NCBI GenBank assembly: GCA_934359535.1
Contig: CAKRLN010000107.1
Coordinates: forward strand, 1-7,148
Length of the DNA stretch: 7,148 bases
Direction of reading: 5' to 3'
From: an uncultured Lachnospiraceae bacterium
GTDB taxonomy: Bacteria; Bacillota; Clostridia; Lachnospirales; Lachnospiraceae
Shown: positions 1 through 7,148 of the stretch, piece by piece
How the letters are laid out: each line of letters opens with the position of its first letter
How positions within the stretch are numbered: position 1 is the stretch's first letter
Notes under the pieces: model-generated
What the model saw: only the letters and a program-made list of their open reading frames with translations
What the model was told of the DNA's origin: nothing
The model's database searches: none
Program-made: the position numbers and the translations under genes

Positions 1-114
1 ACATAAGGCGCTAAAATACAGCGCCTAAGTACCGGCCGCTCCCCAGTGTCTTCTTAATTTTTTTGTCACTTTTCACAATGAAATCCTGTTTAACTATGAG
101 TTTCGCAATTACCT
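1..114 (+). repeat. Partial inverted-repeat (MITE-like) element, copy L
   Basis: This segment matches the reverse complement of 1187-1300 with no gaps and about 20 mismatches in 114 positions (about 82% identity, counted by eye). It begins inside a hairpin: stem 6-12 with 20-26, loop AAAATAC at 13-19. It continues through CTCCCCAGTGTCTTCTTAAT and ends with a terminal motif TGAGTTTCGCAA...CCT followed by AATT. The left half of the element lies outside the window. Eight mismatches fall in the hairpin stem and all preserve pairing. No coding capacity is visible. I read it as a non-autonomous repeat, possibly a miniature inverted-repeat element, but the family is not one I can name. Confidence 0.8.
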
Positions 115-180
115 AATTAACCCTAATAAATGAGCCAATTTTAACACAACTGGGTGAAAAACTCAAATTGCAGGTCTGAC

Positions 181-262
181 GGGTTGGATAAATTGCAAAA
201 GTTTCAGAAAAAAGGTTGGAAAAGTTGAAAATCAGAAGCATAATAAGGTTGGAAAAGTTGAA
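181..262 (+). repeat. Short direct repeat, 33-bp period, two exact units plus one diverged
   Basis: The 18-mer AAGGTTGGAAAAGTTGAA occurs exactly at 212-229 and 245-262, a 33-bp period. A diverged third unit, GGGTTGGATAAATTG, sits one period upstream at about 181-195. The octamer AAATTGCA also occurs at 165-172 and 190-197. Periods near three helical turns put the units on one DNA face, as in iterons or multi-site operators. No replication or partition gene is visible here, so a function cannot be assigned. Confidence 0.6.
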
Positions 263-286
263 CGTCATATAAGGATTTATATGATT

Positions 287-299
287 GTTCATTATGAAC
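287..299. promoter_or_regulatory. Perfect 13-bp palindrome, possible operator
   Basis: GTTCATTATGAAC is a perfect inverted repeat (6-bp arms around one T) 17 bp upstream of an AT-rich TATAAA at 316-321 that could be a -10 element. It lies between the 33-bp direct repeats and the small ORF cluster at 358-737. A well-placed -35 is not visible, so promoter assignment is weak. The palindrome is real; its role as an operator is inference. Confidence 0.3.
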
Positions 300-357
300 A
301 GAACAGAGAGTGTGATATAAATATAGACATTTATCTGATAGGAAAGAGGCTGTTAGG

Positions 358-390
358 ATGAAAATATTAATAGTAAGGAAAATGTTATAA
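358..390 (+). CDS. Possible 10-aa leader ORF coupled to the next gene
   Basis: ATG at 358 opens MKILIVRKML and stops at TAA 388-390. AAAGAGG at 343-349 is a fair Shine-Dalgarno 8 nt upstream. The stop shares one base with the start of the next ORF (TAATG at 388-392), the classic arrangement for translational coupling by terminating ribosomes. The peptide is too short for homology reasoning. It could be a coupling leader, or the ATG could be chance with the downstream gene using its own weak AAGGA at 375-379. Confidence 0.35.
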   Translation: MKILIVRKML

Positions 391-689
391 TGAAAAAAAT
401 GTTACGTAATGTAATTCTTATTTTTTTGTTGGGAGTCACAGGAATAATATATCAAATAGTAAATGAAAATGTAGAACAAAGTATTCAAAGATTATTTATA
501 ATGGTTATTATATTAGCTTTATGGAAAGAATTTATAACGTTTATAATCTATAATATAAAAAATAAAAAAAATAATAGTAAAAAAAATATATTATTATATA
601 TATCATTTTTATTAATATATATTGTTTGTATACTTTTTTCGCTTTTCTTTTTTGGATATATTATAATAGTAATTAGTTTATTTTCATAA
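390..689 (+). CDS. Small AT-rich membrane protein of unknown function
   Basis: A 99-aa ORF that I do not recognise. Hydrophobic stretches at about residues 7-24, 32-54 and 66-98 suggest two or three transmembrane helices. A strongly basic loop at about 56-65 (KNKKNNSKK) is likely cytoplasmic by the positive-inside rule. GC content is about 16% by hand count, far below tyrS and mntP nearby, which suggests horizontal origin or weak selection. A weak AAGGA lies at 375-379, and the ATG overlaps the stop of the 10-codon ORF, so coupled translation is likely. It could be an accessory peptide-system membrane protein or an orphan. No terminator is seen after it. Confidence 0.6.
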   Translation: MKKMLRNVILIFLLGVTGIIYQIVNENVEQSIQRLFIMVIILALWKEFITFIIYNIKNKKNNSKKNILLYISFLLIYIVCILFSLFFFGYIIIVISLFS

Positions 690-701
690 AAGGAGGATTT
701 C

Positions 702-737
702 ATGAAAAAAATATTTCAGATGATTATGGGACTATAA
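702..737 (+). CDS. Possible 11-aa peptide or gene remnant
   Basis: AAAGGAGGA at 689-697, close to an ideal Shine-Dalgarno, lies 4 nt before ATG 702. The frame encodes MKKIFQMIMGL and stops at TAA 735-737. The ORF starts 12 nt after the membrane-protein gene stops, so the two are probably cotranscribed. It could be a genuine tiny hydrophobic peptide, or the 5' stub of a longer gene cut by a rearrangement before the T-box promoter at 772. No continuation of the protein is visible in other frames downstream. Confidence 0.35.
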   Translation: MKKIFQMIMGL

Positions 738-771
738 ATCATTTTTGGCTAAACATAAAGTAAATTAACCA

Positions 772-801
772 TTGACAAATCAAATTTTGAATGACTATAA
801 T
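772..801 (+). promoter_or_regulatory. Promoter of the tyrS T-box leader
   Basis: TTGACA at 772-777 and TATAAT at 796-801 are both perfect sigma-A consensus hexamers with an 18-bp spacer. Transcription would start near 808, immediately before the first paired strand of T-box Stem I (TGAAGC at 811-816). Confidence 0.85.
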
Positions 802-807
802 AAAACC

Positions 808-1105
808 AATTGAAGCATACACAGGCTTTGACGGGAAGAAGTAATACTTTGCGGAACAGACAGAAAGCTGCCGGGTGATGAGAGGCGCATGGGAAGCAGA
901 TTATGAATACATCCCTGAGCTTCACTCTGAATTTACGGAATCTATGCAACGGGTACGTAATAGTAGGATGTGACGGAGTGGTTTCCGTTAGCAGAACTGG
1001 AGTGTTGTCGGACACTCGATAAGATAGACAGTGTGAGCTGTTTATGAATTAAGGTGGTAACACGGGTTTGATTCCTCGTCCTTTTGTGGACGGGGTTTTT
1101 TTAAG
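808..1105 (+). promoter_or_regulatory. T-box riboswitch, tyrosine specifier (UAC)
   Basis: The leader senses uncharged tRNA-Tyr and prevents termination when tyrosine is scarce. Stem I closes by TGAAGC 811-816 with GCTTCA 919-924. The specifier region pairs GGGA 833-836 with TCCC 912-915 and ATA 844-846 with TAT 902-904, leaving AGTA (840-843) opposite GAA (905-907) as the S-turn. The specifier is TAC at 908-910, the Tyr codon. GGTGATGAGAG at 874-884 fits the apical loop motif that docks on the tRNA elbow. The T-box proper, AAGGTGGTAACACG at 1051-1064, contains TGGT (1055-1058) to pair with the tRNA acceptor end. The specifier agrees with the tyrS gene downstream. Confidence 0.95.
1074..1102 (+). 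terminator. Intrinsic terminator of the Tyr T-box
   Basis: CCTCGTCC at 1074-1081 pairs with GGACGGGG at 1088-1095 (one G-U), loop TTTTGT, followed by seven T at 1096-1102. The 5' strand is also needed to form the antiterminator with the T-box sequence just upstream, which gives the mutually exclusive switch. Confidence 0.93.
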
Positions 1106-1185
1106 TTTATGATAATTATGAGACTTACAGAAAGTATATGCGTTAGTAAGTTTAGGAGAGTTTCGCAATTGTTGATTACGAAAAA

Positions 1186-1396
1186 TAGGCAGTTGCGAAA
1201 CTCATAGTTGAGCTGAATTCTATTGTGAGAAGTGACAAAAAGATTAAGAAGACACTGGGGAGCCACCGGTACTTAGCGACCGTATTTTGGTCGCTTATGT
1301 ACCGTTGTGAGCGACACGTAGCGAAAGCGTGTCTTCGAAGATTTTTGTCACTTTGAACAATAAAAGATAGAAAAAAGTGAGTTTCGCAAACGCCTA
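1186..1396. repeat. Complete inverted-repeat (MITE-like) element inside the tyrS leader
   Basis: About 210 bp with long imperfect arms: 1187-1255 (AGGCAGTTGCGAAACTCA at the outer end) pairs with 1329-1395 (TGAGTTTCGCAAACGCCT at the outer end). Between the arms is a hairpin, AGCGACC 1275-1281 with GGTCGCT 1289-1295, loop GTATTTT, framed by GGTAC and GTACC. A second hairpin is GACACG 1313-1318 with CGTGTC 1328-1333. AAT stands on both sides (1184-1186 and 1396-1398), a possible 3-bp target duplication; TA is an alternative. It has no ORF of its own. Its 1187-1300 half aligns in reverse with 1-114. It lies after the T-box terminator and before the tyrS ribosome site, so readthrough RNA would contain it. 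Confidence 0.8.
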
Positions 1397-1410: not shown

Positions 1411-1420
1411 AAAAAAGGAG
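1411..1420 (+). promoter_or_regulatory. Ribosome binding site of tyrS
   Basis: AAAAAAGGAG ends 7 nt before ATG 1428 and is the only good Shine-Dalgarno near the start. It lies just 15 nt beyond the end of the inverted-repeat element, so the element inserted close to the translation start without destroying it. Confidence 0.8.
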
Positions 1421-1427
1421 AAACAAA

Positions 1428-2654
1428 ATGACATTATATGATGAATTAGTTGCCCGCGGACTGATCGCGCAGGTAACAGATGAAGAAGAGATCAAGGATC
1501 TCATTAACAACGGAAAGGCAACCTTTTATATTGGATTCGATCCAACCGCAGACAGTCTCCATGTAGGACATTTTATGGCACTCTGCCTGATGAAACGTCT
1601 TCAGGCAGCAGGAAATAAACCGATCGCCTTAATCGGTGGCGGAACAGCAATGATTGGAGATCCATCCGGACGTACCGACATGCGTCAGATGATGACACCG
1701 GAGACGATTCAGCATAACTGTGACTGCTTCAAGAAACAGATGAGCCGTTTTATTGATTTCAGCGATGGAAAAGCGCTTATGGTCAACAATGCGGACTGGC
1801 TGATGGACTTAAATTATATTGATGTGCTCCGCGAGGTTGGTGCGCATTTTTCCGTAAACCGCATGCTTACTGCAGAATGCTACAAACAGCGCATGGAAAA
1901 AGGCTTAAGCTTCTTAGAGTTTAACTACATGATCATGCAGAGCTACGACTTCTATACCTTATACCAGAAGTACGGTTGTAATATGCAGTTCGGCGGAGAC
2001 GACCAGTGGAGCAATATGCTTGGCGGTACCGAGCTGATCCGTCGTAAGCTGGGCAAGGATGCGTATGCAATGACCATCAATCTGCTTCTTAATTCAGAAG
2101 GAAAGAAGATGGGAAAAACCCAGTCCGGAGCCGTATGGCTTGATCCGAATAAGACATCTCCATTTGAGTTCTTCCAGTACTGGAGAAATGTTGCAGATGC
2201 AGACGTTTTAAAATGCATCCGTATGCTGACCTTCCTTCCGCTTGAAGAGGTTGATGCAATGGAGAGCTGGGAAGGAGCCCAGTTAAATGAGGCAAAGGAG
2301 ATCCTGGCATTCGAGCTGACAAAGCTTGTCCATGGCGAGGAAGAGGCACAAAAAGCAAGAGAGGCTTCCCACGCATTATTCAGCGGTCAGGGAGATCTCG
2401 CACATATGCCGACGGTAGAAGTGACAGCAGAGGATTTTGCAGAGCGTGACATGGATATTATGGCTGTTTTAGTAAAAGCAGAGCTTGCAACAACCCGTTC
2501 CGATGCACGCCGTGCAGTACAGCAGGGCGGTGTTACCGTGGATGGCGATAAGGTATCGGATATTGCCACCTCTTATCAGCTTTCTGATTTTGCCGGAGAA
2601 GGAAAAATCGTAAAACGCGGCAAGAAGAAATTCGCAAAGGTTATTGCGAAATAA
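1428..2654 (+). CDS. tyrS: Tyrosine--tRNA ligase (TyrRS)
   Basis: A cytoplasmic class I aminoacyl-tRNA synthetase that activates tyrosine with ATP and charges tRNA-Tyr. At 408 aa it is of normal bacterial length. The Rossmann catalytic domain opens with [15 protein letters not shown], in which HVGH (residues 45-48) is the HIGH signature. QSYDFYTL (171-178) and GGDDQWSN (189-196) line the tyrosine pocket. KMGKT at 227-231 is the KMSKS-type loop. The C-terminal part, about 343-406, has the S4 RNA-binding fold pattern ([18 protein letters not shown]). The start is supported by AAGGAG 7 nt upstream. Expression is governed by the Tyr T-box, about 320 nt further upstream than usual because of the inserted repeat. 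No intrinsic terminator is visible directly after the stop, so some transcripts may run into the next leader. Confidence 0.98.
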
Positions 2655-2729: not shown

Positions 2730-2818
2730 GATTTGAGAATGATCCGTGAGGGAGTAGTTCGCACGATGGTGTGATTTGTCAACAAACCCGGTATTTGTAC
2801 CTGGCAAATCTTAAAGAA
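2730..2818 (+). promoter_or_regulatory. yybP-ykoY (Mn2+) riboswitch aptamer
   Basis: The signature GGGAGTAG lies at 2750-2757. It is followed by a short helix CGCAC 2760-2764 with GTGTG 2769-2773, then CAACAAACCCGG, a small hairpin CCGGTA/TACCTGG, and GGCAAATC at about 2803-2810. These match the two conserved loops that together bind Mn2+ in this riboswitch class. A closing helix may form between TTTGAGA (about 2732-2738) and TCTTAAA (about 2809-2815), but I could not fix its limits. The next gene is the Mn2+ exporter mntP, the best-known partner. A long terminator hairpin follows, consistent with transcriptional control in which Mn2+ allows readthrough. Confidence 0.85.
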
Positions 2819-2820
2819 TG

Positions 2821-2901
2821 AGACTCATGTATGTTTCATAAAAAAGTCATTTTGGTAAATACTTTAGAATGATGATTTTATGGACATACGTGAGTCTTTT
2901 T
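2821..2901 (+). terminator. Long hairpin terminator of the Mn2+ riboswitch
   Basis: AGACTCATGTATGT at 2821-2834 and following TCATAAAA pair with TTTTATGGACATACGTGAGTCT ending at 2898, a stem of about 22 bp with very few mismatches. The inner part can fold further (TCATT with AATGA). A T-rich run follows, TTTTTGTATTTT. It is unusually long for an expression-platform terminator. It may also end readthrough from tyrS, which lacks its own terminator. Confidence 0.8.
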
Positions 2902-3034
2902 GTATTTTGCAAGCACATGGATAGAATTCGGGATAATTATATTTCAGGACAAATGGCACGCAAATATGGCGCAGGTGCGGACTGTTGGATCTGATCAGAG
3001 GAGATTATGATTACGATAGAAAAGAGGATGAACT

Positions 3035-3619
3035 ATGGCACTATTTATTGAGCTGATCTTAATGGGTGTCGGGCTTGCGATGGACGCATTTGCGGTGTCG
3101 ATCTGTAAGGGACTTGGCATGTCGAAGCTGAACAAGAAGCAGGCAGTTGTGATTGGATTGTATTTTGGTGGTTTTCAGGCACTGATGCCATTTGTCGGAT
3201 GGCTGCTTGGAAGCCAGTTTGAACAGTATATCACAAGCATTGATCACTGGATCGCATTTATTCTGCTTGGGTTTATCGGTGGTAAGATGATTGTGGAGGC
3301 TGTGAAGAGCTGGAATGAGGAAGAGGTTGTTGAGGTTCGGGATGAGCCGATCAATCATAAAAACATGCTTGTGCTTGCGATTGCAACAAGTATCGATGCG
3401 CTTGCCGTTGGAATTACGTTTGCATTCCTTGGAACTCCGATTGTAGAGGCAATTACGGTAATTGGTATTACGACGATGATAATCTCAATTGCGGGTGTCG
3501 CTGTCGGAAATTTCTTTGGAAGTAAATATAAAAATAAAGCGGAGCTTGTAGGTGGTCTGATCCTTGTTCTGCTCGGTGTCAAGATTCTGCTTGAACATCT
3601 CGGGATTATTACATTTTAG
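3035..3619 (+). CDS. mntP: Manganese efflux pump MntP
   Basis: A 194-aa inner-membrane exporter of Mn2+ (former DUF204/YebN), of family-typical length. About six hydrophobic helices form two related halves. The signature GLAMDAFAVSICKGL (13-27) carries the conserved Asp17, and the second half carries ATSIDALAVGITFAF (117-131) with Asp121; these acidic residues are important for Mn2+ transport in the family. A charged cytoplasmic loop at about 92-109 links the halves. The start is supported by AGAGG about 7 nt upstream. Regulation by the upstream Mn2+ riboswitch fits a detoxification role: high Mn2+ turns on its own exporter. The next gene begins 14 nt after the stop and is very probably cotranscribed. 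Confidence 0.95.
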   Translation: MALFIELILMGVGLAMDAFAVSICKGLGMSKLNKKQAVVIGLYFGGFQALMPFVGWLLGSQFEQYITSIDHWIAFILLGFIGGKMIVEAVKSWNEEEVVEVRDEPINHKNMLVLAIATSIDALAVGITFAFLGTPIVEAITVIGITTMIISIAGVAVGNFFGSKYKNKAELVGGLILVLLGVKILLEHLGIITF

Positions 3620-6909: not shown

Positions 6910-7148
6910 TAACTGGCTATCACTTGCAGTTATAACAGAATACACTTTTATAACACGTTGAAAAAGAGAGTACATTTGCAGGAATTTTACAGAGAATTTC
7001 CCACGGAACAGGTGCTGAGAGGGAATGAAGGAGTGCGGATGGAAGATGGCTTTGGAGTGGCAGAACTGAACCGGATAAACCGGATAAGCACTGACAGGAC
7101 CGCCTGTTATAGCGGAGGATGTTAGCCGACATCTGCGGAGGCTGGTTT
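6910..7148 (+). promoter_or_regulatory. Partial T-box leader, apparent GAU (Asp) specifier, cut by window end
   Basis: This segment has the Stem I layout of the Tyr T-box. AGTA (6969-6972) stands opposite GAA (7042-7044), above which CATTTGCA 6973-6980 pairs with TGCGGATG 7034-7041. AGAGA precedes TTCCC 6998-7002, which pairs with GGGAA 7021-7025 around the apical GGTGCTGAGA (7011-7020). The triplet directly after GAA, aligned with UAC in the Tyr leader, is GAT at 7045-7047, an aspartate codon. Hairpins CCGC/GCGG and GATGT/ACATC at about 7100-7130 suit the stem II-III region. The antiterminator, terminator and controlled gene are outside the window; aspS or an aspartate/asparagine gene is the likely target. 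Confidence 0.75.

Follow-up and report, generated by a model that had tools for sequence, protein, structure and literature searches.

The window, by which we mean the whole 7,148-nt stretch analyzed here (contig CAKRLN010000107.1 of assembly GCA_934359535.1, from an uncultured Lachnospiraceae bacterium), contains two copies of an inverted-repeat element. The complete copy, R, is placed between a T-box leader and the tyrosyl-tRNA synthetase gene tyrS, while the partial copy, L, lies at the window start. The features of this region are as follows:

1 to 115, minus strand: copy L, one half of a second element that runs in the opposite orientation and is cut by the window start
6 to 26, minus strand: terminal hairpin of L
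819 to 1086, plus strand: T-box leader of tyrS (Rfam RF00230, 91.9 bits, E = 1.1e-19, barely missing the gathering score of 93)
1158 to 1171, minus strand: isolated remnant of an end repeat shortly before R, from an inverted repeat in the window
1186 to 1396, plus strand: copy R, a complete 211-bp near-palindromic inverted-repeat element with ends 86% complementary and boundaries taken from the family
1186 to 1204, plus strand: left terminal inverted repeat of R, TAGGCAGTTGCGAAACTCA, from end-repeat comparison
1259 to 1333, plus strand: conserved structured tip (core) of R, from covariance model R1 (this tip and 36 others)
1262 to 1312, plus strand: lower tip helix of R, in which 1262-1272 pairs with 1299-1312; its bulges of 2 nt and 1 nt are conserved
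1275 to 1295, plus strand: terminal hairpin of R, seven pairs and the loop GTATTTT, from tip alignments
1378 to 1396, minus strand: right terminal inverted repeat of R, from end-repeat comparison
1415 to 1420, plus strand: Shine-Dalgarno sequence AAGGAG of tyrS, 18 nt past the end of R, in the same phase as in the family
1428 to 2654, plus strand: tyrS (Pfam tRNA-synt_1b and SYY_C-terminal), starting 31 nt past R

A single long hairpin is predicted for positions 1180 to 1402 (-93.6 kcal/mol; z = -10.5). The tyrS Shine-Dalgarno sequence was unpaired in the predicted leader fold that takes in the tyrS start, and, on this modeling, tyrS mRNA that reads through the T-box is predicted to have the 211-nt hairpin immediately ahead of an unpaired Shine-Dalgarno sequence. 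A single promoter-like match lies ahead of R at 1087-1116 (0.6 expected); a promoter and terminator scan found neither signal within R, and no open reading frame (ORF) of at least 50 amino acids lies wholly inside it. The remnant at 1158-1171 is perhaps a decayed older short element in the same leader.

An initial annotation had treated positions 1 to 1300 as one inverted-repeat element. We find instead that R is a full element with end repeats of its own and that L is half of a second one, with its tip at positions 1-42 matching R1 at 46.4 bits. The ungapped complementarity between L and R on which that annotation was based was reproduced (arms 1-118 versus 1183-1300, 82%), as were the identical 7-nt loops of the two hairpins and the paired nature of all differences in their stems, which affect four of seven pairs (AGGCGCT/AGCGCCT in L, AGCGACC/GGTCGCT in R). 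Among 72 tips compared, the L stem recurs in one copy from genome G032, and the R stem recurs in nine tips from G002, one from G053, and two from G251. Since both stems recur elsewhere, the four differences need not represent four events between these copies.

Three other stretches of the window drew our attention. A second T-box-like stretch lies at 6949-7124 on the plus strand (52 bits, E = 2e-9, under the gathering score), and its gene is outside the window. A long leader (2730-3034) precedes an MntP-type manganese efflux gene (3035-3619) and contains a GGGAGTAG stretch, which we take to resemble a manganese riboswitch; no Rfam match to a manganese riboswitch family was found in the window at E ≤ 1. 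A 99-amino-acid ORF at 390-689 on the plus strand appears hydrophobic by eye and had no Pfam match at E ≤ 0.001.

The nearest relatives, Roseburia inulinivorans and Roseburia porci, lack R before tyrS. Across the tyrS region, the former shows 82% and the latter 87% identity to the window. The T-box and tyrS matches are 46 nt apart in R. porci versus 293 nt in the window, and 1 nt apart in R. inulinivorans versus 307 nt in the window. R is therefore an insertion. By eye, all that the R. porci tyrS leader retains is a short, degenerate pair of element ends.

In a genome collection search, the tip pattern matched one contig each of R. inulinivorans DSM 16841, a member of the Lachnospiraceae, and R. 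porci. A follow-on genome search gave 46 matches in R. inulinivorans (G001) and 20 in R. porci (G002) at E ≤ 0.01, and the end-repeat pattern gave 75 matches in the former (3 for the reversed control) and 24 in the latter (0 for the control). Ends in relatives are ~18 bp long, with dozens of copies per genome in several Lachnospiraceae. A stricter end-repeat pattern, AGRYAATTGCGAAACT, was present in 36 of 299 sampled family genomes (reversed control, 0). The initial annotation had proposed that a covariance model be built; the resulting model, R1, matched 86 of 200 family genomes at E ≤ 0.01 and 60 at E ≤ 1e-6, with the caveat that these E-values are rough and that G248 belonged to the training set. 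Plasmids and Escherichia coli genomes gave no match, and the matches of a phage search were four unannotated fecal contigs. No viral contig matched the tip pattern; 33 viral contigs had a single end-repeat match each, which we took as chance. Several end repeats lie within ~260 bases of a contig start in draft genomes (e.g., G070, G231, and G280). Assemblies may break in palindromes, as at the window start, so copy numbers may be lower bounds.

A total of 108 elements with paired ends, 51 to 335 bp long, were collected; they are short, have terminal inverted repeats, and occur as scattered copies, as miniature inverted-repeat transposable elements (MITEs) do. The shortest (51 to 104 bp) are scarcely more than ends. 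Elements of G236 have the same ends and a different interior without the tip, and this tip-less element occurs in at least 13 of the 29 genomes of that genus, among the matches listed. Two loci of G236 (L184 and L188) hold a 334-bp tip-less variant with an extra insert in one arm. Conversely, many R1 tips sit in elements having other arms and ends. The tips at L038, L039, and L049 (G006 and G049) have different outer arms and ends, of the TAACAGTTCAG type, which suggests that tips have been exchanged between element types. Three loci of G248 (L177, L189, and L209) represent a tip subfamily whose terminal stem is down to about three clear pairs.

Conservation of the tip was assessed in three alignments, each a subset of the tips collected: A1 (37 tips), A2 (15 R. 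inulinivorans tips), and A3 (72 tips, 67 of them distinct, from 67 chosen loci and 28 sources). In A1, 95.8% of 645 pair cells were formed, even with poor register in four G248 rows, which weighs against the structure, and 101 two-sided changes were counted versus 33.2 after shuffling. In A3, which was fitted to the model and thereby favors pairing, 97.2% of 1,178 pair cells were formed, with 245 two-sided changes versus 68.2 after shuffling; excesses such as those in A1 and A3 may arise among related sequences even without structure. The initial annotation's expectation that stem pairs would not be broken freely in other copies therefore holds in both alignments. Sliding the register reduced paired cells to 20.6 to 42.3% (A1) and 21.8 to 45.5% (A3). 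Two-sided change affected 16 of 18 pairs in A3 and 6 of 11 pairs of the lower helix (helix 1) in A1, where 98.0% of cells were paired; in A2, the R. inulinivorans tips have a longer hairpin, and 10 of its 31 predicted pairs covary. The 72 tips have 38 distinct stems, most of them one pair from another. Besides the pairs, the bulges, an internal loop, the GTATTTT-like loop, and a 3' AGCGARAGCG segment are conserved. Judged from these alignments, the tip is a hairpin with fixed bulges and loop and a free stem sequence, most likely a structural signal that a protein recognizes, either in the transcript or in extruded DNA.

Paired substitutions between palindromic repeats alone do not prove RNA function. 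They could also result from templated arm-to-arm correction of the palindrome during replication, with no selection on structure. This explanation gains from the rarity of one-sided cells in A3 (22 G-U and 9 A-C, versus 245 two-sided) and from the long arms, which by eye differ between subfamilies yet remain paired; since one-sided intermediates are so rare, there is room for templated correction or for pairing at the DNA level. However, the four conserved features named above (bulges, both loops, and the 3' segment) persist as stems change, and correction would be expected to erase bulges. We therefore consider correction without selection a rather doubtful account of the tip.

It is equally possible, and to us somewhat unlikely, that the tip is a functional RNA of 5' leaders—an mRNA stabilizer, an RNase III site, or a protein-binding element—domesticated by host genes. 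Transcribed bacterial MITEs have been proposed to act at the mRNA level in these ways, according to the extracts of PMC2229807. The strong predicted hairpin and the free Shine-Dalgarno sequence are consistent with such a role, as is orientation in Roseburia and the window, where the tip has the sense of the gene in 31 of 33 orientable copies (13 more were not orientable). In G248, on the other hand, orientation is not fixed (5 tips in the same sense as the gene and 11 opposite; 11 more not orientable), and the tyrS genes of the nearest relatives lack R. The comparison of G-U with A-C cells, which would indicate the pairing strand, is a weak test: G-U exceeds A-C by only 22 to 9 in A3 and 13 to 6 in A1, and the 18 to 0 of A2 comes largely from one column.

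Direct repeats of 9 to 13 bp were found at the ends of many elements. A score of at least 9 was reached by 40 of 91 elements, against a background of 0.000 in ~3,000 mismatched flank pairs, and by 51 of 108 in the larger set; lengths of 8 to 13 were tested, and the commonest perfect duplication was 11 bp long. In G382, such target duplications flank 15 of 20 elements. R itself has no clear target duplication.

For placement, elements were gathered by their ends alone, ignoring genes (two ends with at most three mismatches, made unique), and we then asked whether a start codon that has a Shine-Dalgarno sequence and begins an open frame of 50 or more codons lay 20 to 40 nt beyond one end. This was the case for 79 of 91 elements, compared with 156 of 2,983 random points in the same loci, and for 91 of 108 in the larger set, compared with 210 of 3,701 random points. 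The counts cover fetched loci, with places in G001, G002, and G248 mostly, not fully, included, and the 20 G236 elements come from the listed part of 132 end-repeat matches. By source, the proportions were 36/38 in G001, 27/34 in G248, 16/20 in G236, 9/13 in G002, 2/2 in G032, and 1/1 in the window. A later addition, G382, was queried with the tip-less G236 element, and 20 of its 46 matches were picked before looking at any gene; 17 of the 20 obeyed the placement, all at 25 to 34 nt from the start, compared with 84 of 1,514 random points. Placement was weaker in G154, where 6 of 13 copies belonged to the start cluster. Two genomes, G085 and G068, were left out because 13 of 18 and 4 of 9 of their loci, respectively, gave no match to the tip pattern; for 4 of 5 and 2 of 5 tips found there, the start was 96 to 142 nt away.

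The spacing between Shine-Dalgarno sequence and start showed no correlation with the distance from element to Shine-Dalgarno sequence (r = -0.04) but did correlate with the element-to-start distance (r = 0.50; n = 79). These values tie the phase of the element to the Shine-Dalgarno motif and not to the start codon; the distance to the motif has a standard deviation of ~3 nt, which is looser than expected of a single fixed site. Short elements follow the same placement (16/20). Since both short and tip-less elements (16/20 and, in G382, 17/20) do so, targeting goes with the ends, and as copies lacking the tip choose identical positions, the tip appears to be carried as cargo.

The exceptions among the 108 elements comprise 7 whose nearest start lies outside 20 to 40 nt and 10 with no start within 400 nt. 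At the usual distance, 10 of these 17 score at least 5/7 to AAGGAGG and 7 score below 5; when the same scoring was applied 60 nt farther away as a control, 30 of 107 elements scored at least 5/7. Scores of at least 6/7 were found for 6 of the 17 at offsets 12 and 15, compared with 0 to 2 at offsets of 21 nt or more. By eye, AAGGAG falls within a terminator-like stem at L281 (the same copy as L214) and L285, and GAAAGGG-type stretches fall in apparent reading frames at L257 and L254.

We propose, as the probable explanation of the 91 of 108 placements, that R and L are non-autonomous MITE-like elements mobilized in trans by a putative transposase that cuts ~17 bp from an AAGGAG-like motif. The enzyme would recognize this purine motif in DNA and then make a staggered cut at the predicted distance. 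Because the motif is the Shine-Dalgarno sequence of most genes, the element would land in the leader and leave the ribosome-binding site and its spacing intact, and a cut directed in this way would bring copies to 20 to 40 nt before start codons. Counting against directed insertion are the absence of a clear duplication at R, the 6 of 13 in G154, and the 7 of 17 exceptions that score below 5/7.

The placement might instead arise by survival, if insertion were undirected and mainly those copies persisted that lie just before a Shine-Dalgarno sequence, where the hairpin is harmless or useful. Selection of this kind could be reflected in the gene-sense tips of 31 of 33 oriented Roseburia copies, and the 6 of 13 in G154 would fit it as well. 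But among copies with well-kept duplications, 41 of 51 are already at a Shine-Dalgarno sequence; only 7 of 108 elements lie outside 20 to 40 nt and 10 of 108 are startless, though other positions should be equally harmless; some of the exceptions have no gene there but do show the motif at the usual distance; and G248 tips show no preference for the gene sense (5 same, 11 opposite). Survival without targeting is thus improbable.

The search for a mobilizing enzyme covered two transposase families, PF01609 (DDE_Tnp_1, the type expected in IS4-type elements) and Y1_Tnp. No inward-facing pair of ends was found around the gene at 47 PF01609 loci, which represent 47 of 68 matches from 11 genomes (30 of 51 and 17 of 17) and some of which are ended by contig ends. 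Three 3- to 5-kb stretches between end repeats held ordinary genes and no autonomous copy, and the genus of G236 (29 genomes) yielded no autonomous parent among the matches listed. The initial annotation had raised derivation from an IS as a point against its reading: end repeats and target duplications do make the elements MITE-like, but these searches turned up no parent IS. No R1 match at E ≤ 1 was found in 22 Y1_Tnp loci from 5 of 10 genomes searched, and the remaining 5 hold the tip and had no Y1_Tnp match; the 22 loci thus speak against a REP/RAYT identity. That the tip is a REP-type hairpin mobilized by an IS200/IS605-like Y1 transposase (RAYT) is thus highly improbable, despite the GGAG before the hairpin and the bulged stem, which we take to resemble REP-type hairpins, and target duplications are not expected of the IS200/IS605-like family. 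The elements share with REP/RAYT systems a palindromic build, intergenic location, and high copy number; they are much longer, have end repeats and duplications, and show no Y1 link in those loci.

The initial annotation had recognized no family with this signature, and no Rfam family matched R or L. At E ≤ 1, the matches in the window were two to T-boxes and one, by chance, to an miRNA, with nothing on R or L, and at the gathering score no match fell on the tip in 20 loci. Open-licence literature, among the matches listed, contained nothing on Shine-Dalgarno-directed insertion or this repeat. Among bacterial MITEs, Correia/NEMIS elements insert at TA dinucleotides. According to the extracts of PMC2229807 and PMC3733652, Correia/NEMIS, ERIC, RUP, and Bcr1 are short non-coding MITEs that have terminal inverted repeats with TA ends, many intergenic copies, RNA folding, and target duplications. 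RUP is described as inserting at a TA dinucleotide (extracts of PMC2229807), a criterion from which our elements depart in that their duplications lack a shared TA. No Shine-Dalgarno targeting is named for bacterial MITEs in these extracts, and the terms "Shine" and "start codon" are absent from the main text of PMC2229807. Our elements have in common with these four families that they are short and non-coding, with end repeats that have TA at the ends, many intergenic copies, an RNA fold, and target duplications. They differ in their 9- to 13-bp duplications, in the fixed Shine-Dalgarno phase, and in a covarying tip that is found on elements whose ends and arms differ.

Insertion at a set distance from a recognized sequence, sparing the gene, is known from Tn7 and its attTn7 site, a single site in glmS. 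In vitro, Tn7 prefers GAA-TTC purine tracts in a set orientation (extracts of PMC2886061). The set-distance insertion that spares the gene and the preference for purine tracts are the points of likeness, while one glmS site contrasts with the putative Shine-Dalgarno target of many genes here. Among eukaryotes, Ty1/Ty3 and similar elements land at a fixed distance upstream of genes and so avoid damage; Ty1 and Ty3 are retroelements directed by transcription factors. The harmless upstream landing is common to both, whereas the present case concerns a DNA element of bacteria and a signal for translation.

Under directed insertion, the repeat can likely jump between genes without breaking them. 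A farther-reaching version, which we put forward tentatively, is that the Shine-Dalgarno sequence itself serves as the attachment site and that one tip, read by a dedicated factor, has been seeded in dozens of leaders per genome across the Lachnospiraceae. Directed insertion before translation signals, if true, would be a new answer to how mobile elements spare gene-dense bacterial genomes, and would explain why tyrS in the window and many genes of abundant gut bacteria have long hairpin leaders.
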